Positions 1 to 64,000 of a stretch of DNA of 64,000 nt are shown here, piece after piece. The translations under genes were made by a program, and so were the position numbers. The notes below the pieces were generated by a model. The model saw only the letters and a program-made list of their open reading frames with translations, did no database searches and was not told the origin of the DNA. Positions within the stretch are counted from its first letter, which is position 1; every line of letters begins with the position of its first letter. The DNA lies in assembly GCA_009746045.1 (NCBI GenBank), contig RPFO01001016.1, positions 1 to 64,000 of the forward strand, written 5' to 3'. This stretch comes from Mesostigma viride. Taxonomy: Eukaryota; Streptophyta; Mesostigmatophyceae; Mesostigmatales; Mesostigmataceae.

Positions 1-915
1 TTACGTATTCGAACAAAGAATCCCCGACCGATTCTGTTAATAAAAAACACCTGTCTGTTCTGTATATTACATATCTGTAATTTCCGGGCCTCAACTTACT
101 AATCTGTAATATTTCTCTTTTTTTTTTTTACCCGCACCGTAACCGTTTAGTCAGTAAGACAGTTTATCAAATGGATCGCCAATGACCGCCAGTGACGCCA
201 CAATGTGGACATGCCAATTTGCCAAGTGGCGAGAGTCTTCGAAAAGGACATAGTCGGCAGGGAATCCTTTCATGTTTGCCCCTTTGGCACATGTCAGCTA
301 CAATTGTCTCTCGTGCAAATCCGATTCGTGCGGGTGTCAGATTGGGTCCACCTTGTTTTAGTGCACGTCACCAAGTATCGTGGCATACCTGCCCTTCAAC
401 GTCGGTAAATAATTTCTTGGCTAGCTGCGCCGCGAACCAAATGCGCGCCCCGGCGTTCGCATCGGAACGTCTGCGTGATCGTATTGGCTGATCACGGCCC
501 ACCAGTAACTGGACAGGAAAGCCTGAAACCGAACGGTGTCATCAGTCGTCCCTCTATTGGCTACTACGTTGTTAGTGTCTTTCGCAGTCGCCGCTCCGAA
601 AAGCAGATTTTCCGCTCAGCTGTGACTTGTGTGATCCCTTGTGTGGTCAGAATCTCCGTTGCAAATCTTTGTGCGACGGCCGAAGGATGATTGCCCGCAA
701 ACAGCAACGCGCCACGGGCGTCGTCAGGTCACGGCCCTTCCGGTTACCGCCAAGCATTCATGTGCACATCCCGCTAAAAATCGCGGCAGGGCTGCAGCTG
801 GGAGTGCCATTGCGGCAAATAAAACTGATTTTATTTCAGCAGTCAGCACCAAGCAGTACCAGCGCAACAGAGAATGCTGTGTTATATACGCAACATGATA
901 GCATGATAAAAATTA
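1..915. other. Upstream region, no gene recognised
   Basis: Only short overlapping ORFs with no recognisable domain are seen, in several frames and on both strands. A T-rich run lies near 117-130. Part of this stretch presumably holds the promoter of the bHLH-PAS gene that starts at 1074, but I see no TATA box or other motif I would call with confidence. Confidence 0.4.
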
Positions 916-1011
916 GACAACCAGCGCAGGCCAGAAATCTGGAGAATCCGGACCATGGTAGCTCGAGACTGCCGTTATCTTATCTGCGTTTTCGAGTCGT
1001 TCAGACAACAT
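916..1011 (+). repeat. Duplicated block upstream of the bHLH-PAS gene
   Basis: About 95 bp here recur at 14426-14517 with roughly 93% identity by eye (shared start GACAACCAGCGCAGGCCAG, shared end TTTTCGAGTCGTTCAG). The block ends about 60 bp before the predicted start codon, so it is probably 5' UTR or proximal promoter. The other copy lies inside a LINE-A 3' end. Either this gene recruited a dispersed repeat as its leader, or its leader was copied elsewhere. Confidence 0.7.
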
Positions 1012-1073
1012 GATATAGCAGTGGTCGAGTACATATAAGAGGGTCAAATTGTGGAGTTTCGAGTCGTAAGCCG

Positions 1074-1372
1074 ATGGAAATGCCATCGCCTGTGCATCAT
1101 CTACCGTCACTGGAAGTGCTAGATGAAGTGGGGGACTTTTTTGGCATCCCCCGGGAGTATTCAATAGCCCACGAACCAGTCGAACCAGCTGAGCAATTCA
1201 AGCGTTCTAGTGGCAGTGCAGATGCAACAGCAGCCACTGGGTATGATGCCCTCGACTCCGCGGGCGTGCCTGACAACAGCCATGCTAGTGTGTCCATGAA
1301 AAGGTCTGATAGCGACCTTACTGAGTCGGACTCAAATAATGATCTCAAGGAGGAGGACCCTAAGCGGAAACG
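1074..1372 (+). CDS. bHLH-PAS gene, exon 1
   Basis: Starts at ATG 1074 (MEMPSPVHH) and ends in phase 2 inside a CG|G codon before GTAAAT at 1373. It encodes a Ser/Asp/Glu-rich 99-residue N-terminus ending in a basic KRK stretch that leads into the DNA-binding region. Reading through the donor meets TAA at once, which supports splicing here. An earlier upstream exon is possible but not needed. Confidence 0.75.
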
Positions 1373-4300
1373 GTAAATGTTGCTGGCTTGTGGGGGGGCT
1401 GCCGGTTCGTATATTGAAGCCCCTGCATTTCGTGGTTACCTACTTTTTATGGCTATGCGGCTTATAGGCGATGGCCCCTGGCCCTGGCAACGTGGTGCAC
1501 TGCTGACAGGCAACGCGTCCATCAACTCTGCGAACAAAGACGACGGAATCGGATGAAGGAGATCGTACATGATTTCAAGCAATTTTTGCCAAAGGAATAC
1601 GCGACGAAGTCGGACAATCTCTCCCTGATCTGCGCCGGTCTCAGGTGCGTCATTGCGGAGCCTTTATAATGTTCGCAGGCATCTCCACAAGTGTGTCATT
1701 CATGCACCTCGTCAAGCAATCTGCAGACTGTGGGGGGGGTCGCGAACATGACTTTGGGGCGCATCTTAGCGTTATCGTGGACTTGTGCACAAATGAAACC
1801 ATGCAACTTGGTGATGGCTATGTCACAGCCACTGCCCTTCCCCTCATATCTCCTCATTACAGTTCTTCTCGTCCTATCTCCTCATTACAGTTTACGGTTC
1901 CGGTACCCCATGTCGATTTTCTGCTTGGCACTTGCAACATGGTGGCAAAGTGGTGGTGAAATGGTGGGAATATTGTGGCAATTCGAGGTTGTACCTAGCC
2001 GCCACTGGCTCGGCCTAGGTTGCCACGCTTTTCCAAGGGGTCAGGGTGCCACCTGCATGCAACAACCGTGCATGATGGAGGGTATTCCCAGAACAGATGC
2101 ATTCAGGTTGTATTCTATTGTTATTTGCATCATGTCTAAATAGTTAAATACATACATAAAAAGGTTGTCATACCCTTTCCCATCATGTCATCCTTTGCAT
2201 GGCAGTTATGGTAGTAGTACATCAGCAATGGTATTACTACCATTAAAAAAACGCAAGAGTGCGGACATGCCAGGGGAGGAGTTGTACAGGTAGGTGTCCG
2301 TTGAGATGTCAGAGCTGTCAGACCGGCAAACTTGTAGCTTTCGCGAGAATGTCTAATAATTACTGATGTGTTTAGGGGTAATAAATGATCCCGAGGAAAG
2401 TACATCACCGGGGCACGGTTAGCAGAGTGCACGTTCGATCCACATGCGAAGTAAGTTAAGTGACAAGGAGTGATCACGAGTAAACAGAGTGCATGTTCGA
2501 TCCACGTTCCATGTCAGTGTAGTGACAATAAGTGATTATTAGTAAGTAGAGTGCACGTACGACCCACATTCGATGTCAGTATGTATGGCGGTAAGTGGCC
2601 ATGAGTAGGCTGAGTGCACCTTTGATCCACATCTGATGTCAGTATAGTGACAATATGTGGTCATGAGTAACTAGAGTGCACCTTTGATCCACATCCGATG
2701 TCAGTATAGTGACAATATGTGGTCATCAGTAACTAGAGTGCAGGTCTGACCCACATTCGATGTCAGTATAGTGACAATATGTGGTCATCAGTAACTAGAG
2801 TGCACCTTTGATCCACATTCGATGTCAGTATAGTGACAATATGTGGTCATGAGTAACTAGAGTGCAGGTCTGACCCACATTCGATGTCAGTATAGTGACA
2901 ATATGTGGTCATGAGTAACTAGAGTGCAGGTCTGACCCATATCCGATGTCAGGGTAGTGACAATATGTGGTCATGAGTAACTAGAGTGCAGGTCTGACCC
3001 ACATTCGATGTCAGTATAGTGACAATATGTGGTCATGAGTAACTAGAGTGCAGGTCTGACCCACATTCGATGTCAGTATAGTGACAATATGTGGTCATGA
3101 GTAACTAGAGTGCAGGTCTGACCCATATCCGATGTCAGGGTAGTGACAATATGTGGTCATGAGTAACTAGAGTGCAGGTCTGACCCACATTCGATGTCAG
3201 TATAGTGACAATATGTGGTCATGAGTAACTAGAGTGCAGGTCTGACCCACATTCGATGTCAGGGTAGTGACAATATGTGGTCATGAGTAACTAGAGTGCA
3301 GGTCTGACCCACATTCGTTGTCGCTTTCGTGATAGTAAGGGTTCATGAGTAAACAGAGTGCACTTTCGATGTCAAGCGGCCGCATTCGCTTACAGCGGCA
3401 CGTCTCGTTCCGGTAATGTGGGCCAATGTATTTGGCACGTAGCTGCCAACGTTACAGTACCGGGCCCCGTTACAGCACTGGGCCCGGACCCCCTTACAGC
3501 ACTGGGCCCTGTTACAGTACTGGGGCCCAATATCTCATTAAGTTTCGCAAAACTGAGATCATGGGTCATGTGCTTCATCTGAAGGTTGAGCACCTGTTAC
3601 GTCCGCATGGCATGATGTTGTTGCCCCCACATCAATGTTGTCGTGGCAGGTAGTTTCGACGTATGACGTCGACGGGGTGGAAATAGAAAGTGTCGGCCCT
3701 TACTGAGACAGTGGCGACGCTTACTGTGAATGTACCGTGGTGGCACCTACTGTGACTGTACCGTGGCGGTACTTACTGTGACTGTACCGCAGCGTCACTT
3801 ACTGTGACTGTACCGTGGCGCCACTTACTGTGACTGTACCATGGCGGCACTTTCTGTGACTGTACCGTGGTGGCACTTGCTGTGACTGTACCGTGGCGGC
3901 GCTTACTGCTGTCACTATACTGTGGTGACGCTTACAGTGACCCCCTGTGACCAGGTCTTAGGGTGCAATGTCGTACTGATACATCTTCATCAATGTTTTT
4001 GTATAAATCTATTCATGTTAGTTTCAGTCGACAGTTCAGTTATGGTTCACACGCACAATTAGCACTTTGCGGACTACCGAAAAGAAAAGGGAAGGAAAGG
4101 GTTGGGGGAGGGGAGCTTTAGTGCGCTATCAATGAGCCCCTCCTCACCCCAATCCACCCCAACCCAACCCAACCCAACTCAAACCAAACCAAACCAAACC
4201 AAACCAAACCAAACCAAACACCAACACAACACAACACAACACCACACCACACCACACCACACCACCCAACCCCAACCAACCCCAACCAACCCACCCACAC

Positions 4301-7300
4301 ACCCACCCACACACACATCCACCCACCCACTCTGCTTGCGCTCGCAGGTATTCACGCTACCTGCTGAGTCAGCACGACGACCTGGCTCGCAAGAATGCGA
4401 TGCTGGAGCGACAGCTGGTGTCTGTCTCCAAGCTGCTGTCCAAGGGCACAGTCGAGGGTGTGTGCCGCGCGTCTTGCTGTTTACCCCTTCCCATTTGGCT
4501 GGACCCAATTTTAAAATTGCTTAGCAATGTGGAATGCAAACCGGTCGCTATCTTTTCACTCGCTCTGTTTGCTCAACGCTGAGATATGTATGGCACACGT
4601 ATTTGGCTATTAGAACATGCATGAACGGCCCCTTTCCAGGCTGTGGGGATGGTGGCCCGTTTAATTTCATTTCATTTCATTATTATTTTTCTAGAACGGG
4701 CAGCCATGCTCAAGCAATCACAGTGCTCAATGTTGCTATTTCAGTGTGGGCATCATTCGGGTTTGCCCCGTGTTTGTCATGGATCCCAGAGCCCTGTGTA
4801 CGGGTGTGCCGCACAGTTTCTGGTGGCTTCCGTGGTCAACCAGAGTTGTCTGTCAATTGCTTGACGGGTGCCCTGGCAGCGAGTTGCGGGCCCTTGCGAC
4901 GTGTGGCAGAGGCGAGGCAGATGGGGGGCACGGGACTAGCATTTCAAAGACACGGATGGGGGGCATGGGACCTGCACATCAAACACAGATGGGGGACATG
5001 GGAATAGCACATCAAACGCAGATTGTGGGCGTGGGACTAGCACATCAAACACAGACTGGGGGGTGGGACTAGCACATCAAACACAGATGGGGGCGTGGGA
5101 ATAGCACATCAAACGCAGACTGGGGGGTGGGACTAGCACATCAAACACAGATTGGGGGGGTGGGACTAGCGCATCAAACACAGACTTGGGGCATGGGACT
5201 AGCACATCAAACACAGATGGGGGGCCCAGGACTAGCACATTTAACGCAGATTTGGGGCGTGCGACTAGCACATCAAACACAGATGGGGTGTGTGCGACTA
5301 GCACATCAAACACACATGGGGGACATGCGAATAGCACATCAAACACAGATTGTGGGCGTGGGACTTGCACACCAAATACAGATTGGGGGGGGGGACTAGC
5401 ACATCAAACACAGATGGGGGGCCCAGGACTAGCACATTTAACACAGATTGGGGGCGTGCGACTAGAACATCAAACACAGATGGGGTGTGTGCGACTAGCA
5501 CATCAAACACAGATGGGGGGCCCAGGACTAGCACATCAAACACAGATTGGGGGCGTGGGACTAGCACATCAAACACATGCTGGGGGCGTGGGACTAGCAC
5601 ATCAAACACAGATGGGGGGCGTGGGACTAGCACATCAAGCGCGTGTAACCCATGGGACTGTGGGGGGGCATGTGGGCCAAGTGGGTGGCAGGCGGCAGGG
5701 GGGGTTAGTATGGCTATGGAGTTATCGTCGAGGCAAGCAGCAAATAGAAACCATATGCTGCCGAGCGCCGGAACACACACACGCACACACACACACACAA
5801 AAAAAAAAACACCGTGAAAGTTGAAGTAGCTAGATGGAGTTATCCTAATTGGTAGGTAGGTGGAAGCCTGTCTCGCTGGGATTTTTACACAACTTGACGC
5901 CCAGAAAAGTAGGGGCGTCGCAACCTGCACAGACAACAACTGGGTGCATAGCGATCATGGTTAGCGAGTCGGGGAGTTGGTTGCACGGGGCCAGTCAGCT
6001 CGCCAAACCACCCGCGATTCCACACCTCGACAATTGCTTATACTGCGTTGCGCTGTGCCGGAGCACCCTTCCTACCCCCTACCCCCTTGTAGACCCCGCT
6101 GCCCGCCCCCCCTCCACTCCCGTTGCCACCTCGCACCTCCCCAAGGTGCCGCTTGCTGCCGTGTCCCGTGTGACTTCACGTCTCCCCCATGGTTGCCACC
6201 CCCTTGCTGATCGCCATGCCCGTACTTGCCCTCATGCGCCGCCCCCCCCCCCCCCCCCCCCCCCCCCGCTTGTCACCCTGCTTGTCCTCACCACCACCAC
6301 CCTCTTAATCCCCCCCCTTTTTGTTATTGCGCCCCCATGTGCCCTTACGTCCCCGCTCGCCCTCGCACCTGACTCGCCACCAACCATCCCCCTTGTCATC
6401 AACCCCCCCCAGGGCCCCTGGACTTCCGCCGTGTGTTTCAGCACACGGCAAGCGCGGCGGCCATCATTAGGCTGGCGGACTTTGCACTGCTGGAGGGCAA
6501 CCTCAATTTCCAGGCCATGTTCGGCCACGTGCCGCAGGAGATGGATGCGACGCTCAAGTTCCAGCACCTGCTCTCCGACACGGACATCTGGTGGCAGAAG
6601 GAGGTGGGTGGGTGGGTTGGTGTGGAAGGTTTGGGGGCATGTGGTTGCACGAGGTGGTGGTGGTGGGTGGGGTGGGTGGGTGGGTGGGTGTGGGTGGGTG
6701 GGGGCGGGGCGGGGGCGGGGCGGGGCCGGGGCGGGGGGGGGGGGGGGGGGGGGCAGGGGGGGGGGCGGGGGGGGGGGCGGGCGGGCGGGGGCGGGGCGGG
6801 GGCGGGGGGGGGGGGGGGGTTCGGTTTTAGGGCTATATGGTGGCAAAAGGTGTGTGTGTGTGTGTAAGGTTTAGGGTTTGGGGCCATATGGTGGAACCGA
6901 GCTGTGGTTCAAATGGGAGGGGTGGCGTGAAGAGGCCTGGGCAACCGGTGGCTTAAAGTTTGCATAAGTGGGGAGGCAAACAACATCAGAGGGTGCCATG
7001 ACGTGGTGCAGCCAGGCGAGCGAGTGGGGGGGCTGGTAAACCCATGGCCTATCTGGCCCAACCCAACGTATGACCCGGAGGAAGCGATGAGGGTTCGGTC
7101 CAACAGGTAGGGAACGCTGGCATGATGAGGTGGGAGGGGGGGAGGGCCTGTCGTCGTGTGTTCCGTGGGGGGAAGGGGCGGCCTAAAGAGCAAGGGTTCA
7201 GCGCCCAAGGCACCGGAGATGGCAAAGGATGTCAGCAGGTGGCCAGGTTATCCGTGGTAGAAGAGAGCCTAGGGGAGGATGATGCTGGACTTATTTTTTT

Positions 7301-10300
7301 ATGTATTATAGATATATCGATATATAGATTAGAAGAGAGCGTGGGCAAGGGTGATTCTGGATCCAGAGCTGTAATTGCAAGGTGTTTGGGTGCCATTGAA
7401 AATATAGTAGTACACAGATGGATACAAGTAAGAAATGACTTGATATTTTATTAGTGCTACAAATAGAATAGAAACTTTGGATGATGCCAACAGCGTCCTG
7501 GGCACGGGGGTGAAATTGTTACAAGGCAGCCGTACTGGAGGGCACGGGAAGAATGTGGCCATGATTATGGCGGCTGGGCGGATGGCCGCAGCTTGTTTAC
7601 TTGCCATTCCAGCGCCCTGATCGCACCATTACCTCGTACCTGTTCATGCATAACAGGTGACCCAAATCTCATCGCAGTTTTAGGTTTTAGTTGTTCTACA
7701 TTACCTACCTACCAACCACGCGCCACCCTTTTTCGTGTGCTGCCCTCCGCTCCTTGCCCACCTCCCCATGCTCTTCTTCGGAAACCAAGCCAAAAGCACG
7801 AAAGAACTCATTATTCTGCGCAATGCAGCCCAGCAATAGCCACCCATCTAAAACTGCCTGCCATCTTCACTGCCGCCTCGGCCACCACCACCAAACTGCC
7901 ACAAAATTGTTGCTACTTGCCACCCCTTGGCCGGCTCTTGCATGTGTGAGCAGAAGAGCTACTGGCGCAACTTCGTGATAGGCATCCTGCTTACATGCTC
8001 TGATACTTCTGTTTATATCTGCTGTGTGTGTGTGTGCGAGCAGAAGAGCTATTGGCGCGACTACGTGGTGGGCATCCTTCGCACGCACAGCAGCTTTGGC
8101 TGGGACACGACCCTAGTCGCGCGCAACGGGTGTTCCCACTCGGTCATCATATCCGCGCAAGGTGAGGGCAGGGCGATCCGTACTGCCATGGCATGATCAT
8201 GAGTAGCACTTTGCTAGTGACGCAGTCGTTATTTCCGCACAAGTGGGGCAGGGCCGTGACCAGCTGGGCTATCGTTGTAGCTGGTACTCCAAACACACGA
8301 CCGGGCCATATCTCCGGACAAGGAGCCAGGGACGGCGGCCGCACGCAAGGATTGTCACTAGTACAACTATTGCCACCTCTACTGTGCTACCGTCTTTAAT
8401 GACTGCTGTTGCTTTGCTGAAAGTTGAGCGGAGATGCCTTTTCTAGTCCAGGGTGAGGGGTTGAATGCGAGATTGATATCCTTATTGTCAAGCTATTTGC
8501 TTGTTTCGTCACTGTAACTATCACACTCCTTCGACATCCTCACAGTTGCCTTGTAGCCATGGAAAGTCCCCCTGTCCCGCAACGCCACCCCTGTCATAAA
8601 CCAAGACCGTGACCATTGAACCTGATGATGCTCGTACTACCTTGACATCGAATGTCTGGAAAATTAGCCGGACATTTGTTTTCTTGTCACCTTTTGTTTC
8701 TTTTGTTTGCTATGCATTCTTGCGTCTCCTTGAGCGACGTGCGTCCCCTGCTTGCCCTTCATTGCCCTTTCTGTCTCTTCTCCGCTATTCTCCTGTTGCG
8801 ACCTGTCATGGTGAAGTACCCTCGTTGTTTTGTGGCCCACCACTGTGGCTCGTGTCGTGAGTTCACTCACCGGCTGCCCCCTACCCCGTTTGCCCCGTGT
8901 GCCCAACCATGTAACCAAACAAAATAACCACAAACCACATTATAACCACACCCGTGAAAACCCCGCCACCTCGAACAACCTACAGGTCTCACGGAGAGCG
9001 ATGGCTCCCTCGCCTATGCGCTGCTCTCCATCACCTTTGGGTCGAACCCCGATCGCCTCTGCTACTTCTCCATCAGCGGCCGCCGGGCCAAGCCCATCCC
9101 GATCGAGGCCACCCCCTGCAACAACGCGCCCGATCTCGACCCCATCATGATCTCAGGGCCATCCTCGTACCTGATCGAGGGCAACTGCCCCGGCCGCGTG
9201 ATCCGGGGCGAGTGCTCCATCTGCCACCATTTCCACTGCGGCCGGCCGTGCCACACAGACCCCTCGCGCCTCTGTGGGAGCGCGCTTACCATCAAGCAGG
9301 CGCGCACGCTCTCGCAGCTGGCCGCCGCAGCCAACGCCAACGACAGCCAGCATGCGCACGCCGATGAGCACAGCCACCACCACGCCTCCAAGGGGGGGGC
9401 GCCGTGCGGGGACTATAACCACAATAACCACAATAACCATGATAACCATAATAACCATCATAGCCACGATAATAACGGGAATCATGCCATGAACCCGGGC
9501 GCGCAACGGATACCCTGCGGAGGGGGGCTCGGCGTGCTTCCCCCCCCTGCGCTGGACATGCCGGGCCTAACCCCCCTCGCGCCCCACCTGTCGGCCACCC
9601 AGAGCGGGATGTTCACGGGATCGGCGCTCGAGGATGAGAACAGCATCACAGGGGGCGGCGGCGGCGGCGGCGGCGGCCGCGTGGCAGGTGTCGATAAAAT
9701 GTCGGCGGCGCGCACGGGGCTGTGCTTCAGCCCCATATCCGACACCTCCTCCCCCTTGGTCTTCCCAAACCCAGGCTCCGGTGTCTTCCCTTCGTCGAGC
9801 TCCTGCCGCTCGACGCAGCACGCCACCCCCGCGAGCTCGTTGCAGCAGCAGCAGCAGCAGCACAGTGGTGGCTCCCAGCCGTCACTCACGCTGAGCCACC
9901 CAGGGTCTGCCATGCGGGGCCAGCCGCCCCTGGCGGCCCAGTCAATGTCCGGTGGCAAGGGCGTGCTGTCCTTGACCCGCATGATCTCGCCAGGGACCCT
10001 AGACAGCGCCTGCCACCTCCAGGGCGGCGCGGGGGCGCCCGGTGGCGGCGTGGGCTCGCAAGAGTTGGGGGACGGCCGTCCCTTGAGCGTGGGCAGCATG
10101 GCGGTGGGGTCGGGGGTTGGCAGCGGGGGTGGGGTGGGTATCACGGGCCCACTTGCGGGTCTCCCCCCGATGAATGGGTTCCCTGGCGGCGCAAGGTATC
10201 ATGCGGGGTTCAACGACGCCGGGCACCAGTTCCTGTCCAACGTCTCGCCCCCGCAATCTCACCAGGAGCGAACGGGGCGGCCACTCGCTCCGGTGCTCCC

Positions 10301-10450
10301 CTCGGCGCTGTTGCAGGCGTCGGGGAAGCCGGACCCTCAGGCGGCGTTACTGCACCCGCTGTTCGTGCTGCAACAGCAGCAACAGCAAGAAGCATTACAG
10401 CAGCAACAGCAAGAAGCATTACAGCAGCAACAGCAAGAAGCATTACAGCA

Positions 10451-10489
<39 letters not shown>

Positions 10490-11285
10490 AGCGCCCGGGC
10501 TTGATCATGGACCACTGGCCCCTTTGTCCGCTGGCATGGGGCTCCCCCAGCAATTTGGCGACATGCTGGCGTGGCAACGTAGTCTCACTACCAAGAACAC
10601 CAACAACAACAACAGCAGCAGCAACAGCAACAACACGGGCAATCTGTTAACCATCGCCTCGCACTCGCTCAAGATCACCGAGCTGCCCTCAGACCCCTCC
10701 ACCCTGGACGCCACCCAGGGGCGGCCGCAGCTGCCACCACCCAAGCCATCCTCACAGCCGCGGCAATCGCAGCAGAGCGTGTGGATGAGTCGGGGGCCCG
10801 GGGGCGGGAGCGGGCTTGAAGCCGTGCTCACGGGCCACTCAAATAGTAGCAGTCGGATAGGCTCGCTTGCGTATGAGCGGGGGGTTATGTCCTCCTCCTC
10901 TGGTGCACCTCAGGTAGCTGCGCCTTCCTTGTCCATGGCCACCCCTGGAGGAGTGCTCCATCTGTCCCAGCAGATGTCGTCCTCAATCCTGCCCTCATCG
11001 CAGTCATCCCTCATGGGGGGGTGCGGCCTCATATCGGACCTCTCCTCCCTGCTCGGGGACAACAAGTGCCGCATGGCCAACCAGTTGGGCCCCGCGTCGC
11101 TGGGTGTGTCGCACGGTGGGGAGTCCTCCGTGGCAGGGTACCTGCGGTCCTACCACGCGGGCAGCCTATCGACGATGGGGTCCGGGGGCATGCGAGCGAC
11201 GGCCATGCCGGCGTGGCTGGCGGGCGCGGGAATGGAGCCGGGCACGTCGCTGTGCTTTGATTCGCTCGACCGGCTCGGGCCGTGA
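1074..11285 (+). CDS. bHLH-PAS-like transcription factor, six exons
   Basis: Exons 1074-1372, 1510-1644, 4348-4457, 6413-6603, 8044-8161 and 8986-11285 join with consistent phase into about 1050 codons ending in TGA. All introns are GT-AG. Residues 1-99 are acidic and Ser-rich and end in DPKRKR. Residues 100-150 form a bHLH: H104, E108 and R112 are the E-box-contacting H-x3-E-x3-R set, followed by helix 1, a loop with KEYATKSDN, and helix 2. A zipper continues with L150, L157, L164 and V171. Residues about 184-330 look PAS-like (FRRVFQHTASAA, GWDTTLVARNG). Next come a Cys cluster (C361-x2-C364-x4-C369-x3-C373), an Asn/His run, poly-Gly and poly-Gln. A nuclear DNA-binding regulator with a sensory or dimerisation PAS domain is inferred. 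The PAS call rests on pattern only. Confidence 0.8.
1510..1644 (+). CDS. bHLH-PAS gene, exon 2: basic region, helix 1, loop
   Basis: A 135-bp exon between GCTGACAG and GTGCGT, phase 2 in and 2 out. It supplies the whole basic region (RVHQLCEQRRRNRMKEI) and the F-x2-F-L-P helix-1 end. Without it, exon 1 would still join exon 3 in frame but the DNA-binding motif would be lost, so skipping it would give an in-frame protein without the basic region. Confidence 0.78.
2415..3370 (+). repeat. 62-bp satellite, about 15 copies
   Basis: The unit holds TAGTGACAATATGTGGTCAT and GAGTAACTAGAGTGCA. The core recurs at 2645, 2707 and 2769, giving a 62-bp period. Outer copies at both ends are diverged and central copies nearly identical, as expected from unequal crossing-over. 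A variant carrying CCATATCCGATGTCAGGG appears 186 bp apart (about 2935 and 3121), an incipient three-unit higher-order repeat. Confidence 0.93.
3440..3530 (+). repeat. Short GGGCCC-rich tandem repeat
   Basis: Three to four imperfect copies of a unit of about 25 bp containing TTACAGCACTGGGCCC. It lies between the 62-bp and 27-bp arrays, within intron 2 of the bHLH-PAS gene. Confidence 0.6.
3698..3955 (+). repeat. 27-bp minisatellite
   Basis: About nine or ten copies of a unit containing TTACTGTGACTGTACCGTGG with single-base variants. It is intronic, in intron 2 of the bHLH-PAS gene. Confidence 0.88.
4141..4333 (+). repeat. CCAAA/CCAAC/CCACA simple repeat
   Basis: A pyrimidine-plus-A pentamer and tetramer tract that drifts from CCAAA through CAACA and CCACA to CCCA. 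It runs to within 15 bp of the exon 3 acceptor at 4347 and so forms an unusually long, purine-poor 3' intron end. Confidence 0.88.
4348..4457 (+). CDS. bHLH-PAS gene, exon 3: helix 2 and leucine zipper
   Basis: After CTCGCAG; ends GTCGAGG before GTGTGT. It encodes YSRYLLSQ of helix 2 followed by a heptad zipper (L150, L157, L164, V171). Phases 2 and 1 match the neighbours. Confidence 0.78.
4917..5640 (+). repeat. 31-bp minisatellite, about 23 copies
   Basis: The unit holds GGGACTAGCACATCAAACAC followed by AGAT and a G run. Unit length varies between about 28 and 33 bp, mostly through the G run. It is intronic (intron 3). The long open frames across it (GLAHQTQ and GTSTSNTD type) are repeat artefacts in all three frames. 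Confidence 0.92.
5773..5812 (+). repeat. CA microsatellite and A run
   Basis: ACACAC tract with interruptions followed by ten A residues, in intron 3 of the bHLH-PAS gene. Confidence 0.8.
6241..6267 (+). repeat. Poly-C run, 27 bp
   Basis: An uninterrupted C homopolymer inside a C-rich intron end, 145 bp before exon 4. Its length is likely to be unreliable in any assembly. Confidence 0.85.
6413..6603 (+). CDS. bHLH-PAS gene, exon 4: N-terminal half of PAS-like domain
   Basis: After CCCCCCAG, up to CAGAAGGAG before GTGGGT; 191 bp, phase 1 in and 0 out. It encodes PLDFRRVFQHTASAAAIIRL...NFQAMFGHVPQEM, a pattern of an amphipathic helix then beta strands as at the start of PAS domains. Homology needs a profile search. 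Confidence 0.72.
6604..6830 (+). repeat. G-rich tract at the 5' end of intron 4
   Basis: GGTGGGTG and GGGGCGGG runs begin right at the donor site of exon 4. On the RNA strand this could form G-quadruplexes over or beside the 5' splice site. The glycine-rich and proline-rich ORFs here are composition artefacts. Confidence 0.8.
7935..7990 (+). pseudogene. Partial duplicate of exon 5
   Basis: GAGCAGAAGAGCTACTGGCG...GGCATCCT nearly repeats the acceptor and first ~45 bp of exon 5 (8041-8090), with the preceding TGTGTGAGCAG. The copy encodes KSYWRNFVIGIL where exon 5 has KSYWRDYVVGIL. It then diverges without an in-frame donor I can see. It is a truncated exon duplication or a decoy 3' splice site. 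Confidence 0.75.
8044..8161 (+). CDS. bHLH-PAS gene, exon 5: C-terminal half of PAS-like domain
   Basis: After GTGCGAGCAG, up to GCGCAAG before GTGAGG; phase 0 in, 1 out. It encodes KSYWRDYVVGIL...GWDTTLVARNGCSHSVIISAQ, with the late beta-strand look of a PAS core. Confidence 0.75.
8986..11285 (+). CDS. bHLH-PAS gene, exon 6: PAS end, Cys cluster, low-complexity tail
   Basis: After CCTACAG. It begins LTESDGSLAYALLSITFG, then CNNAPDLDPIMISGP, a Cys cluster around 9208-9275 (ECSICHHFHCGRPC), Asn/His repeats from (ATAACC/A)n near 9415-9480, poly-Gly at 9654-9680, short Gln runs, and a large interrupted poly-Gln at 10371-10488. The stop is TGA at 11283-11285. Gln-rich tails of this sort are common in activation domains; the role here is inferred. 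Confidence 0.82.
10368..10490 (+). repeat. CAG repeat encoding poly-Gln with E-A-L interruptions
   Basis: CAGCAGCAACAGCAAGAAGCATTA units of 24 bp occur about three times, then a pure CAG run. All units are multiples of three and keep the frame of the bHLH-PAS gene. Confidence 0.92.
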
Positions 11286-32405: not shown

Positions 32406-32583
32406 TTGTGCAATTAACGTGCCATACGAACATTCCGGACGGTACATTCCCCGGTGATGTCGGGCAGTTGGGGGGTTCGCTTGGTCCCTTGGTTGCTTCC
32501 TCGCTTGGCTGCCACTGCGGGGGTGTAATAAGGACAGGTGCTCAAATGGAGAGACACTAGACGTGCATGCATGTTTGATGGAT

Positions 32584-33402
32584 GGGTGGGTGGGGGTGGG
32601 TGCATGGGTGGGTGGGTGGGTGGGTGGGTGGGTGGGTGGGTGGGTGGGTGGGTGGGTGGGTGGGTGGGTGGGAGGGTGGGTGGGTGGGTGGGTGGGTGGG
32701 TGGGTGGGTGGGTGGGTGGGTGGGTGGGTGGGTGGGTGGGTGGGTGGGTGGGTGGGTGGGTGGGTGGGTGGGTGGGTGGGTGGGTGGGTGGGTGGGTGGG
32801 TGGGTGGGTGGTGGGTGGGTGGGTGGGTGGGTGGGTGGGTGGGTGGGTGGGTGGGTGGGTGGGTGGGTGGGTGGGTGGGTGGGTGGGTGGGTGGGTGGGT
32901 GGGTGCAGGTGGGTGGGTGGGTGCAGGTGGGTGGGTGGGTGCAGGTGGGTGGGTGGGTGCAGGTGGGTGGGTGGGTGCAGGTGGGTGGGTGGGTGGGTGG
33001 GTGGGTGGGTGGGTGGGTGGGTGGGTGGGTGCCAGGGTGGGTGGGTGGGTGGGTGGGTGGGTGGGTGGGTGGGTGGGTGGGTGGGTGGGTGGGTGGGCGG
33101 GCGGGCGGGCGGCGGGCGGGCGGGGGGCGGGCGGGCGGGCGGGCGGCGGGCGGGCGGGCGGGCGGGCGGGCGGGCGGGTGGGTGGGTGGGTGGGTGGGTG
33201 GGTGGGTGGGTGGGTGGGTGGGTGGGTGGGTGGGTGCAGGTGGGTGCCGGGTGGGTGGGTGGGTGGGTGGGTGGGTGGGTGGGTGGGTGGGTGGGTGGGT
33301 GGGTGGGTGGGTGGGTGGGTGGGTGGGTGGGTGGGTGGGTGGGTGGGTGGGTGGGTGGGTGGGTGGGTGGGTGGGTGGGTGGGTGGGTGGGTGGGTGGGT
33401 GG
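32584..33402 (+). repeat. (GGGT)n array, about 820 bp
   Basis: Near-pure GGGT with a GGGC block at 33093-33178 and five copies of a 20-bp unit with GGGTGCAGGTGG at 32903-32985. Every strand-specific GGG repeat makes G-quadruplexes likely. All long Thr/His/Pro and Val/Gly/Trp ORFs here are artefacts. Confidence 0.97.
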
Positions 33403-34946: not shown

Positions 34947-35345
34947 GGCTCCTAGAGGCACTATCCCAGCTAAGCCCCGCGCTTTATTTAATCATGTACA
35001 TGTGTGCCTATGATGTGCCACACTCCAGACGATGCCTAGCCTTATTTAGTAATGTTGTGCCCATGCAGGGAGTCACTCTCTGCTGAGAAGCCATGCCATA
35101 GCTCTTGTATAGCCATGATGATCTTCCCCCTCACAGGCATGCTCCCCCCTACCCGGGCATAGCGTGATAGACCATGAGGGTGCGGGTGCCCGGCCTGGTG
35201 CACCTAGAGCAAGTGTTGTTTACATTCCCACCCTTGCAGGAAGTAGCTTAGAATGTATTATAGGCTCATATGCCCCTTCTCAGGGCTATGTGCTACATAT
35301 ACTCCCAACGGAGTTATGTTCCTAATTAATTAATTAATTAATTAA
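34947..35345 (+). mobile_element. Half-B 3' UTR, truncated copy
   Basis: Matches the inverse of 15190-15560: GAGAAGCCATGCCATAGC, GGGCATAGCGTGATAGACCATG, AGCAAGTGTTGTTTACATTC, stem-loop ACTCCCAACGGAGT at 35301-35314 and an (ATTA)n tail that runs straight into the (GGAT)n array. Confidence 0.88.
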
Positions 35346-35942
35346 TGGATGGATGGATGGATGGATGGATGGATGGATGGATGGATGGATGGATGGATGG
35401 ATGGATGGATGGATGGATGGATGGATGGATGGATGGATGGATGGATGGATGGATGGATGGATGGATGGATGGATGGATGGATGGATGGATGGATGGATGG
35501 ATGGATGGATGGATGGATGGATGGATGGATGGATGGATGGATGGATGGATGGATGGATGGATGGATGGATGGATGGATGGATGGATGGATGGATGGATGG
35601 ATGGATGGATGGATGGATGGATGGATGGATGGATGGATGGATGGGTGGCCGGATGGATGGATGGATGGATGGATGGATGGATGGATGGATGGATGGATGG
35701 ATGGATGGATGGATGGATGGATGGATGGATGGATGGATGGATGGATGGATGGATGGATGGATGGATGGATGGATGGATGGATGGATGGATGGATGGATGG
35801 ATGGATGGATGGATGGATGGATGGATGGATGGATGGATGGATGGATGGATGGATGGATGGATGGATGGATGGATGGATGGATGGATGGATGGATGGATGG
35901 ATGGATGGATGGATGGATGGATGGATGGATGGATGGATGGAT
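35346..35942 (+). repeat. (GGAT)n array, about 149 units
   Basis: Nearly perfect GGAT repeats with one interruption (GGGTGGCC at 35643-35650). (ATTA)n lies on both sides, and the 3' ends of two oppositely oriented retroelements face it. The Met-Asp-Gly-Trp ORFs are artefacts. Confidence 0.97.
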
Positions 35943-36366
35943 TAATTAATTAATTAAACTCGTGCTCCCGTTGGGGAGTCACGGAGCACCGAAGTGCTTT
36001 TAATCCCTGTGTGTGCACTACAGGAGAAAGGGCAGAGACCCCCAGTCTCCTTCATGCCAAAGGCATGCCACAGCTGCAATCGGGCGCGGCTAGCTAAAAG
36101 GACAGGCTAACGATCCGGCAAACTGTGGGTGCAATAAGACCCATGTGAGCATGTCATAGCAAGGAGCGTGGGCAAGTAATCTGAACATAGCCAGGGCGTA
36201 GCATGGCTGTACTAGAACTAGGCTAAGGCTATGGCTGGTTGTGTACCGTGCGTTGGCGGCACGTGACTAGGTTTGTTGGCACAGCTAGGCAAACATTCTA
36301 GGCATGGCTGCCTTAGCGACAGTGACTCCAATGGTTACAAGCTACGGCTATTGCTATTCTAGCCCG
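35943..36366 (-). mobile_element. Half-A 3' UTR, truncated copy
   Basis: (TTAA)n tail, the intact stem-loop GTG-CTCCCGTTGGGGAG-TCAC at 35962-35982, then the same 3' UTR as 18650-19035 (about 97% identical). It ends at GCTATTCTAGCCCGCT, at the half-A stop-codon region. Confidence 0.9.
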
Positions 36367-36373
36367 CTATTCT

Positions 36374-36794
36374 GGATGGATGGATGGATGGATGGATGGA
36401 TGGATGGATGGATGGATGGATGGATGGATGGATGGATGGATGGATGGATGGATGGATGGATGGATGGATGGATGGATGGATGGATGGATGGATGGATGGA
36501 TGGATGGATGGATGGATGGATGGATGGATGGATGGATGGATGGATGGATGGATGGATGGATGGATGGATGGATGGATGGATGGATGGATGGATGGATGGA
36601 TGGATGGATGGATGGATGGATGGATGGATGGATGGATGGATGGATGGATGGATGGATGGATGGATGGATGGATGGATGGATGGATGGATGGATGGATGGA
36701 TGGATGGATGGATGGATGGATGGATGGATGGATGGATGGATGGATGGATGGATGGATGGATGGATGGGTGGATGGATGGATGGATGGATGGGTG
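36374..36794 (+). repeat. (GGAT)n array, about 105 units
   Basis: Joins half-A 3' UTR sequence to LINE-A ORF2 3' UTR sequence exactly where intact LINE-A copies carry a short CATC repeat after TGTTTGCACC. Confidence 0.97.
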
Positions 36795-48089: not shown

Positions 48090-49060
48090 TACCATACTTC
48101 AGGCCGCTTCAAGCAGTGCTCGGCAGTTGGCTTCCTGACTGCGAGGACGACCTGACGACACGGATCGGCATGGCGTGGGCGCAACTCCATGACCACCGCC
48201 GCTGGTGGAGCAAGTTACCCCGCCCTATACCCCGGATCGTCAAGCGTGACCTCTTCAAGGTCGTCATTCTGACGATCCTGACCTACGGCGCGCCGACACC
48301 TGGACACTGACGCAGGAGCTGGAGCAACGACTCGACGGCAACGTCACCAAGATGCTGCGCAAGGCCCTTAACATCCCCTCTGCTTTGCACATTAGTAATA
48401 AGGATTTGTACGCTGATTTGCCCTATGTTTCCCACATTATTAGGCACAGGCGCCCGTGGGCCTAGCCGGGCACCTGGCCCGCACAGATCAGGTAGACACA
48501 TCAGATAGACTACTCGGGTGGCACCAAGCCCGCCCAGCCTGGGCGATATGTCCTCACCTGGCGTGCCCCAGGCTGCGCGCGGCAGGGCCGCCACCCGTGG
48601 ACTTTTCGTGATAGATTGGGCATGGACATGTGCTACCCTAGACGTGCCGGGCTCACACCCGGGCAGCGCCTCCTGGTTTGTCTGTAATATGGAGGCAGAT
48701 CCCTTGGTCTGGCCGGCCCCCAGCTGCTTGGCCAACCAGGGCGGCATATTTTGACCTGGCCTGCCAGTCCAAGGCCATTCCCAGGAAGCTAGGTAAACCT
48801 GCCATGAACTACACCCAGATGTTGCTGGCTGACCTAGTGGTCCCGGCTCAGTTTGAACAGTGCCGCATCGATCCACTCCCTCTCCCTTCTTCGGACTGGT
48901 ATGCAGAACAAGAAGTGGTGGCAGAAGATTATCCAGGCGCTCACACGCCACTGCCCCTGTGGGCAAGCCACCCCCCCCAAGAGGAAGGGGCGTTTTGCTG
49001 AGTAGTGTAGTTAGGCTTTTATCGACTAGATAGCTTAGAGTTATCCCCAACCCCCTGCCG
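48090..49060 (+). pseudogene. LINE-B ORF2 C-terminal part, decayed
   Basis: LQAVLGSWLPDCEDDLTTRIGMAWAQL...VVILTILTYGA, then WTLTQELEQRLDGNVTKMLR in another frame, HIIRHRR, GHLARTDQVDTSD, and the C-terminal end (AMNYTQMLLADLVVPAQFEQ; ending GRFAE-like and TAG near 49003). It matches 51600-51840 and 23400-23775. At least four frameshifts. The 3' UTR is cut short at about 49040, where the next LINE copy begins. Confidence 0.83.
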
Positions 49061-49089
49061 ACACCGCGGGTCCCCGGCGCCCCCTGCGC

Positions 49090-51890
49090 ATGGGCCAACG
49101 CCGGCACCACTCGCTGCGCATCGCAACCTACAATGTCCGCACCCTGCCCGGGGGAGATGCCCCCCCGCGGGCCAACGAGCTTGTCCACTACTGCCGCCTA
49201 TATGGCATTGATGTGCTTGGGGTCCAAGAGCACCGACGCTCCTTTGAGGGCCCCGTTCAGCGTACGTGTCACCCTCGCACTACAATGGCAACTGCTGTGC
49301 GGCCCGGCGCATGCACCGGGTCAGGGAGGAGTGGGCCTGCTGTGCTCCCCCACCGCTGCCGCCCAGCTCGTGGACCACAAACTTTGCTCGAATAGGATCC
49401 TTCAGTGCACTTTCCGCTCCCTTGAAGGACGGACCCCCATTATGCTCTCGGTAATTGTCGGATATGCCCCACATGCTGGGCACCCGGCCGAGGACCGCGC
49501 AGCGTTCTTCAACGTCCAGTTGCTCGACATAGAGAAACAGATCCCACGTCAATACATCGTCGCCATCTTGGTGGATGCCAACGCGACCCTGCCCGTGGGC
49601 CGCGGGGGCTGCATGTATGCGCCGCGCCTAACCGATAGCAATGCCAACACCCCCCTACTTGAGCAACTGCTCACTGAGGGGGACTTGACTGCTGCCAATA
49701 CGCTTTTTGCTAAACCGCCTGATGCACTAGTGACCTTTGTGGGCCCCATGCGCAGGGCGGCTGGCTCAATGCTCCCTCGGCGGCGATGTGTATGCTTGGA
49801 CTACATACTTGTGCGCAAGTGCTGGCGCTCTTCCGTCATCGATGCCCGTACGCTGACCACCCCCAGTGTCGCATCGGATCATCGCATGGTCACCGCAACC
49901 TTGCGCCTACGTCTTCAGGCCCCTGCGCGCCGCCGCCCCCGGCCCCGCCCTGACTGGACCTGCTTACGCCCCGTCCGTGGGCGCAGGGAAAAGTGGTCAG
50001 CGGATGAGATACGCCGCGATGCACTCAGGTCTGCCTTTGTGGACGCGCAACCTTTGATGTACCTGGACGCAGATCGCGGTGTAGATCTCACGCCACCCTA
50101 CGAACTGTTCATGCGATCGGTGGAGCTTGGCTCTAAGCTTCTCCCCGAGCAACCCCGCGCCCGACCAGCCCCGCTCTACCTGCGCGACGCCCGGGTGGTT
50201 GCCGCCCGGCTGGCGCTAGCGCAGGCCCGCCGCCGCGGGGAGGACCTGTATAGGCCCGTACCAGGAACGGCTTACTCAAGCATATACTGCCGCACATGCG
50301 GAGGAGGTGGAGACACTTGCCGCCGAAATCAATCGCCACACGGCCGCCAACCAGCACAAGGCGGCCTGGCGCTCTCTCGACCGTCTCACCGGACGCCGGG
50401 AAACGCAACGGGCTGACATCCCAGGCACCCCCAGTGAACGCCTTGAGATTTGGTTCAGCTCCCAGGCCAAACTATCAGGGGCCCCTGGCCCGCCCCCCCC
50501 ACTTGACCCCGCTGCAGCTGCACGCCCTGCGGCCAGCCGAGGCGGCCCCATCGAGCCCCCGCAGGCGCCCACCAGCGAGACGGACTACCTGGTCCCACCG
50601 CTCTCCGGCCCCCTGGTGGACGGCCCCCACGACGAGTGGACTCCCCAGGAATGGGCTGCTGCCATCTCCACCCTCCGCAATGATGCTGCCATGGGAGTGG
50701 ACAATATTTCACCGGAGGTGGTTAAGATGCCTGAGCTTGAGCCCTTCCTCCGGGGTGTTTGCAACCGGATTCTACGAGATGGCCTCCCCCCGCCGACGTA
50801 TTGGAAGACCGCTGTACGGGTCATGCTCTACAAGGGCAAGGGGTCCGCCGCGGATACCGGCAACTACCGCGGCGTATGCCTCCAAAGCTGCGTGCTGAAA
50901 GTCTTCATGCGTCTCCTGCTGAACCGCATGCGCGCCAGCCTCGATCCCCACCTAGGTGAGTCCCAGATGGGCTTCCGTGTTGGTCGCAATTGTGTTATGG
51001 TCACTATTACCGCGCGCCGCCTGATCGAGGAAGTGGGTCGCCTGGCCCCCGGCCTCTTGCCATTGCTATTGATCTTCGTGGATTACACCAAGGCATTCGA
51101 TACGGTTACCTGGGACGCCCTGTGGGTGGTCCTTCACCTGTTCCGTGTCCCATCGTACATCGTTGAGATCATCCGCCAGTTCTATGAAGGGTCCCAAGCC
51201 CAGGTCCGTACCGCCGACGGCGTCACTCCGGCGTTCCCCCTGCACACCGGGGTGTGGCAGGGCTGTGTGCTCTCCCCATATCTATTCATCATTATGGTGG
51301 ACTATATTATGCGGCGTGCACAAGCCCGCTTCGCCCGGGTGGAGGGGCGCCCGCCGGGGATCGAGATCACGGAGTACGCCAGCTACGGCGGGGTTGACCC
51401 ACCCTACCGCCTGAGCGATCTGATCTACGCTGATGACACGACACTCGTGGAAACCCCAGAGTCAGCCCAACTGTGGCTAGACAGCTTATCACTGGAAGCG
51501 CGGGCGGTGGGGCTTATGATCAGCAAGAAAACGGAGGTCATGGCCATCGGCTTCCCTGCTGGGATAGCCCCACCCACCCTCCTTTTGCTGGACGGCAGCC
51601 CCGTCCCCCCGGCGACTCGCTTCAAGCTCCTTGGCAGCTGGCTTCCCTCCACGGCCGACGACATCAACACCCGCATTGGCCAGGCCTGGGCGGCCCTCCG
51701 CCGCCTCGACAGGTTCTGGACCTGTCGCTACCTGAGTGAGCGACGCAAGCGCATTCTGTTCAAGGCCCTTGTCCTCAGCATCCTCCTTTATGGCTGCGAG
51801 GCGTGGACCCTGGACCAGGCGCTGAGCCAGCAGCTTGACGGCACCGTCACTCGAGAGGACAGCTCGGATGAGGATTACATCCCCATCTAG
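49090..51890 (+). pseudogene. LINE-B ORF2: AP endonuclease and reverse transcriptase, two frameshifts
   Basis: Frame 1 from 49090: SLRIATYNVRTLPG and GIDVLGVQEHRR. A shift near 49260 gives GGVGLLCSP, SVIVGYAPHAG, AILVDANATLP, CVCLDYILV and SVASDHRMVTATL, the EEP endonuclease set. A second shift near 50260 leads to the RT: GVDNISPEVVK, NYRGVCLQS, QMGFRVGRN, LLIFVDYTKAFDTVTW, GVWQGCVLSPYLFIIMVDYI, LIYADDTTLVE (catalytic YADD), GLMISKKTEVM, FKLLGSWLP. It ends at TAG 51888 as DGTVTREDSSDEDYIPI, where related copies read on for about 190 more codons. No RNase H is seen. It is the best-preserved reverse transcriptase in the window. Confidence 0.9.
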
Positions 51891-63666: not shown

Positions 63667-64000
63667 TCCCTCCTCCCTCCTCCTCCCTCCCTCCCTCCTC
63701 CCTCCCTCCTCCCTCCCTCCCTCCCTCCCCCCTCCTCCCTCCCTCTCCTCCCTCCCTCTCCCTCCCTCCCTCCCTCCCTCCTCCCTCCCTCCCTCCTCCC
63801 TCCTCCTCCCTCCCTCCCTCCTCCCTCCTCCCTCCCTCCCTCCCTCCTCCCTCCCTCCCTCCCTCCCTCCCTCCTCCTCCCTCCCTCCCTCCTCCCTCCC
63901 TCCCTCCCTCCCTCCTCCTCCCTCCCTCCCTCCCTCCCTCCCTCCCTCCCTCCCTCCCTCCTCCCTCCCTCCCTCCCTCCCTCCCTCCTCCCTCCCTCCC
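63667..64000 (+). repeat. CCTCC/CCTCCCTCC polypyrimidine array, open-ended
   Basis: A tract of CCTCC and CCCT units with irregular phase running to the end of the window. Its full length is unknown. Confidence 0.96.

Follow-up and report, generated by a model that had tools for sequence, protein, structure and literature searches.

A bHLH gene with a likely short zipper and a probable PAS domain in the streptophyte green alga Mesostigma viride

Introduction

Does an early-branching streptophyte alga encode a regulator in which a basic helix-loop-helix (bHLH) head is joined to a PAS domain? The question was raised by an initial annotation of a 64,000-nucleotide stretch of Mesostigma viride DNA (contig RPFO01001016.1, positions 1 to 64,000; hereafter the window), in which six exons were read as a bHLH-PAS transcription factor. 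A green bHLH-PAS protein, if real, would bear on the age of this architecture in eukaryotes, that is, on whether it is ancient or had several origins, and would offer a testable sensor-regulator near the streptophyte base. If the second domain is not PAS, the gene encodes an ordinary divergent bHLH-zipper factor.

According to the available portions of the sources cited here, animal clocks and hypoxia responses are run by bHLH-PAS proteins, a single-PAS member (RITMO1) acts in the diatom clock, and bHLH-PAS proteins occur in all diatoms and other stramenopiles with sequence and in other phyla; the clock of the green alga Ostreococcus uses the plant-like pair CCA1 and TOC1 (PMC12018780). Vertebrate bHLH-PAS proteins have two PAS domains, and a bHLH with one PAS was common to the two stramenopiles studied, perhaps by convergence with vertebrates (Thiriet-Rupert et al. 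2016, PMC4827209). Citing other work, PMC10739334 places homologues in alveolates, cryptophytes and rhodophytes and attributes bHLH proteins with a single PAS to dinoflagellates, ciliates and Guillardia. A bHLH phylogeny is mentioned in PMC7027972, the main text of which, so far as available, does not contain "PAS domain"; that of PMC6947507 contains neither "bHLH" nor "PAS domain", and the available parts of PMC12704426, PMC3634410, PMC8874327 and PMC9498864 do not name a green bHLH-PAS protein. Among the papers listed by a search whose coverage mostly excludes subscription journals, no title or abstract opening pointed to a report from the green lineage. The initial annotation mentioned reports from algae and from early land plants; the sources above place bHLH-PAS proteins, partly by citation, in stramenopiles, ciliates, cryptophytes, dinoflagellates and red algae, and none from early land plants was found in the literature searched.

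Results

Gene model and alternative exon joins

Five introns, all GT..AG, joined six blocks of the window in phase into one 1,050-aa frame whose sole stop is the terminal one, as the initial annotation had proposed. The exons, and a sequence related to one of them, are as follows.

1074..1372, plus strand: exon 1; start codon, acidic N-terminus and the KRKR bordering the basic region (open reading frame, GT donor, same sequence on scaffold C1)
1510..1644, plus strand: exon 2; the basic region (QRVHQLCEQRRRNRMKE), then helix 1, the loop and the start of helix 2 (tblastn to C1, 100%)
4348..4457, plus strand: exon 3; remainder of helix 2 and about three leucine-zipper heptads (the match to Max extends through it; heptads by reading)
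6413..6603, plus strand: exon 4; N-terminal half of the PAS-like block (NLNFQAMFGHVPQEM) (PAS_8 at E 0.058, below cut-off; GC3 0.88)
7951..7998, plus strand: truncated tandem copy of the exon 5 start (QKSYWRNFVIGIL), by reading
8044..8161, plus strand: exon 5; middle of the PAS-like block (acceptor 8041 or 8044 possible, GAGCAG)
8986..11285, plus strand: exon 6; last strand of the PAS-like block, Cys/His cluster, long low-complexity tail and stop

Exons 1 to 6 measured 299, 135, 110, 191, 118 and 2,300 bases, and the introns 137, 2,703, 1,955, 1,440 and 824 bases; the published mean for introns of this species is 1,142 (PMC6947507, available text). GC content at third codon positions was 0.51, 0.62, 0.78, 0.88, 0.82 and 0.80, which is coding-like for exons 3 to 6 and weaker for exons 1 and 2. 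Introns 2 and 3 contained long arrays of minisatellites, with a 62-bp unit at 2424-3362 and a 33-bp unit at 4918-5638. The copy at 7951-7998 lay just upstream of the real exon 5, differed from it in mostly conservative ways, showed no obvious donor on reading, and is probably a non-functional remnant.

For exons 4 to 6, 13 donors, 9 acceptors, 7 donors and 3 acceptors yielded 295 stop-free in-frame combinations. The junctions of the initial annotation ranked second (5.5 bits on our own PAS profile), and the top combination (7.1 bits) differed solely in taking the other AG of the GAGCAG tandem acceptor (8041 instead of 8044). Because the combinations were scored with that profile, this ranking is not independent of the PAS reading.

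The assembly searched comprised 439.9 Mb in 2,243 contigs, the window lying on its 64,027-bp contig C1921. Window positions 727-5807 had a second copy on scaffold C1 (5,086-column alignment, 99.8% identical), in which the protein of exons 1 to 3 was 100% identical; positions 1-726 did not align to C1. After the copy, C1 continued with a 120-base inverted copy of window positions 5807-5926 and then, over the other 9,044 bases fetched, with nothing but N. Contig C1921 may belong in the C1 gap, and published gene models may split this gene.

The same break figures in the idea that two adjacent genes were wrongly joined: a short bHLH-zipper gene in exons 1 to 3, which would end at 4582 or at 4524 (approximate stop positions for the alternative frames), and another in exons 4 to 6. 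This would suit the 1,955-bp intron between exons 3 and 4, the frame of exon 3 that stays open beyond its donor, and a C1 copy with only exons 1 to 3 before the Ns; the C1 break is uninformative on gene structure, however, because it adjoins Ns. Exon 4, by contrast, has no in-frame ATG between the upstream stop (6370-6372) and its acceptor, so that an upstream exon is required; the acceptor has a pyrimidine tract followed by CAG, and exons 3 and 4 join in phase. We regard two genes as very unlikely and retain the six-exon gene.

Inverted duplications were seen at C1:6523837-6523956, beside the gap, and in two plastid contigs (C602 and C900, rbcL in both orientations); these may have arisen as hairpin artefacts of the assembly, a true inverted repeat being the other possibility in the plastid. 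Elsewhere in the window, overlapping frames at 49034-51890 matched reverse transcriptase (E 7.8e-25) and endonuclease/exonuclease/phosphatase (E 8e-4, below cut-off), an order suggestive of a non-LTR-type retroelement. Long tetranucleotide arrays (TGGG, ATGG, TCCC) occupied 32579-33402, 35345-36791 and 63667-64000, the first two coinciding with long, probably spurious frames on both strands.

The green origin given to the gene at the outset was supported by the plastid sequences of the assembly. Its rbcL was of green type and closest, among PDB sequences, to 1gk8, which we take to be the Chlamydomonas rbcL product. The plastid pieces, of which five of six were read, showed atpB, rbcL in the opposite direction, and then rpl23-rpl2-rps19-rpl22-rps3-rpl16-rpl14 (gene names by reading), presumably a streptophyte-like order.

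The bHLH-zipper head

Residues of about 97-182, scanned alone, matched the HLH family PF00010 at E 0.0013 (19.0 bits, just under the cut-off of 20.7); within a 427-aa N-terminal piece the match weakened to E 0.02. PDB matches at E up to 10 comprised nine distinct sequences, eight of Max and one of Pho4, with best values of E 0.001 and 0.097, respectively. The basic motif, HQLCEQRRR, has the form H-x3-E-x3-R that had been noted in the initial annotation; this H5-E9-R13 pattern is that of group-B bHLH proteins, which bind CACGTG. By sequence, exons 1 to 3 encode a real bHLH, and the profile match predicted for it was obtained.

Helix 2 was followed by L-x6-L-x6-V, with a positions that include Asn and Leu, about three heptads by reading, and the alignments reached query residue 71-77 in seven of the eight Max sequences. 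On this reading the protein would have a short zipper after helix 2, in line with the heptads first described. The same Pfam scan gave CowN a lower E-value than HLH (E 0.00079; 20.4 bits, cut-off 27; in NCBIfam 16 bits, cut-off 48); being below cut-off, it was read as a chance likeness between charged helices.

The PAS-like block

A PAS-like block had been noted after the zipper, and hallmarks of PAS domains were visible in it by eye: N-L-N-F-Q-A-M-F-G-H-V-P-Q-E-M, W-D-T-T-L-V-A-R-N-G and S-D-G-S-L-A-Y-A-L-L-S-I-T. When exon 4 was scanned alone, the sole family listed was PAS_8 (PF13188), with E 0.058 and 13.8 bits (cut-off 21.8); in a 120-aa region it was one of two families (E 0.2), the other being Peripla_BP_1 (E 0.15). 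Divided by the 24,736 models searched, the PAS_8 values are about 2e-6 and 8e-6. None of nine shuffles of the region matched any PAS family, and two matched unrelated families (E 0.035 and 0.064). An E-value near 0.05 is thus at chance level for "any family", and the PAS_8 match carries weight only because PAS was the question posed beforehand.

Profile comparisons placed the block in PAS register at low scores. Starting from a FixL PAS sequence, a profile was iterated over 85 frames taken from 30 bacterial PAS loci; it scored the block at 5.5 bits, with the second half in register. Of 2,000 shuffles, 5 scored higher, and five PAS sequences, one of them from this genome, reached 17.6-43.0. With hhalign in local mode, residues 24-113 of 120 aligned collinearly with a PAS alignment, starting at the NxxF...FG...E block and extending to RNG and DG. 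The probability was 3.8% in local mode (6/400 shuffles higher) and 1.5% in global mode (2/400); three positive controls reached 93-97% locally and 40-96% globally.

Other results count against PAS, and some of them would suit a bHLH-zipper followed by a non-PAS domain, unrelated or specific to the lineage, such as a dimerisation domain in an ACT-like role (ACT-like domains are the dimerisation part of some plant bHLH proteins). Three other cuts containing all or most of exon 4 lost PAS_8 and matched Peripla_BP_1 only; pieces of the C-terminal half gave Peripla_BP_1 (64 aa, E 0.061) or nothing (39 aa). No PAS family appeared in the Pfam scan of the 427-aa piece or in the NCBIfam scan, the query scored 0.0 bits with a PAS model built from nine sequences, less than at least 12 of 999 shuffles, and a PDB search with the region returned one irrelevant match (E 1.6). 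AlphaFold2, run on exon 4 as a single sequence, built helices rather than strands (pLDDT 66.9, pTM 0.35) and on the start of exon 6 was uninformative (pLDDT 38.2); half-domains without an alignment are poor tests of this kind. A non-PAS domain would fit PAS matches that fall below threshold and change with the cut chosen, shuffles that reach similar E-values with other families, the failed nine-sequence model and the helical fold; it fits poorly with exon 4 alone listing PAS only, with both halves aligning in PAS order, and with Pfam scans that contain no ACT family. We consider it unlikely.

What stands of the proposed block is a PAS_8 match in the expected register; it was below the curated cut-off and lost in other cuts, and neither the nine-sequence model nor the PDB search bore it out. 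Given sub-threshold matches with the expected register in both halves, a PAS domain after the zipper is unproven and quite probable. There was one PAS-like block only: exon 6 had no Pfam family at E 0.01, and a second PAS was not found there. The LOV flavin motif G-x-N-C-[RK]-[FIL]-L was absent from the translated model.

Cys/His cluster and tail

Two further features lay in exon 6 (translated model).

9186..9275, plus strand: Cys/His cluster, residues 352-381 (C352, CSICHHFHCGRPCH, C381)
10371..10487, plus strand: poly-Gln tracts of the tail, residues 747-785

The cluster (C352, C361, C364, H365, H366, H368, C369, C373, H374 and C381) matched no Pfam family and could, from its residues, be a putative zinc site. 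The tail, described at first as Gln-rich, is so in patches, with poly-Gln runs of up to 14; from residue 386 onward, Gly (14.1%) and Ser (13.5%) exceed Gln (9.9%).

Relatives

A search of the genome with the core, exon by exon and thus of limited sensitivity, returned the gene itself, the C1 copy and one match on C1613 taken as chance (E 1.62, 30% identity, one TGA), and no close paralogue. A collection of bacterial and archaeal genomes gave 64 pattern matches and no relatives. A viral contig (L022, 38% identity over 49 aa) was taken as chance because its neighbouring frames read as phage structural genes and the aligned stretch includes the search seed, DFRRVFQH. A separate partial bHLH was seen in L001 (E 6.4e-4).

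Two PAS_3 exons were found at C557:2896094-2898660, and the sequence around them, on reading, showed more PAS-like stretches as well as an ankyrin-like frame; among solved structures, one of these PAS sequences was most similar to BMAL1, AHR and HIF (E 5.8e-9). Plus-strand frames of at least 70 aa in the 20 kb fetched (4,260 bases of it N) contained no bHLH, and the locus was set aside as one reading as an ankyrin and multi-PAS protein.

Discussion

The locus has an open exon model, a bHLH and, within it, E-box-type basic residues. With moderate confidence, we explain it as one green-algal nuclear gene for a bHLH-zipper transcription factor of group-B type that carries one divergent PAS domain immediately behind the zipper, then a possible zinc cluster and a tail rich in Gly, Ser and Gln. 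On well-founded analogy with its family, the protein would dimerise through the HLH and zipper and bind an E-box or G-box (CANNTG, probably CACGTG). The predicted PAS might tune the choice of dimer or sense a small molecule, redox state or partner; the cluster would be a putative zinc binder, and the tail, probably disordered, a putative transcription activator. Somewhat short of an even chance, in our judgement, is the fuller proposal of a true bHLH-zipper-PAS sensor factor in an early-branching streptophyte alga, either ancient and lost in land plants or an independent fusion, in which PAS sensing would be coupled to regulation at E-boxes, perhaps for the timing of a clock or of stress responses.

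Among known systems, the pairing of a DNA-binding head with a probable sensor is best known from animals and diatoms; support here is good for the DNA-binding part and weak for the sensor. Max and Pho4, the closest solved sequence relatives of this bHLH-zipper, have to our knowledge no PAS domain. The animal proteins (ARNT, BMAL1, CLOCK, HIF, AHR) have bHLH then PAS, the probable order here, and the basic residues of ARNT are H-E-R, like those found here; they differ in having two PAS domains in vertebrates, a PDB search with the PAS-like region returned none of them, and we know of no animal member with a zipper. With one PAS-like block, a zipper and Max as closest solved relative, a protein of ARNT, CLOCK or SIM type is not supported, in keeping with the non-animal regulator first proposed. 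The aureochromes (bZIP-LOV) are alike in outline, a DNA-binding head with a PAS-superfamily sensor in an alga, but have bZIP rather than bHLH and LOV rather than plain PAS; the present protein lacks the LOV cysteine motif and so does not belong with the flavin-based blue-light receptors of that type. RITMO1 and the single-PAS stramenopile bHLH proteins, compared by domain order, have one bHLH then one PAS, the arrangement probable here, likewise in an alga; the Mesostigma protein differs from them in its green lineage, zipper, Cys/His cluster and long tail.
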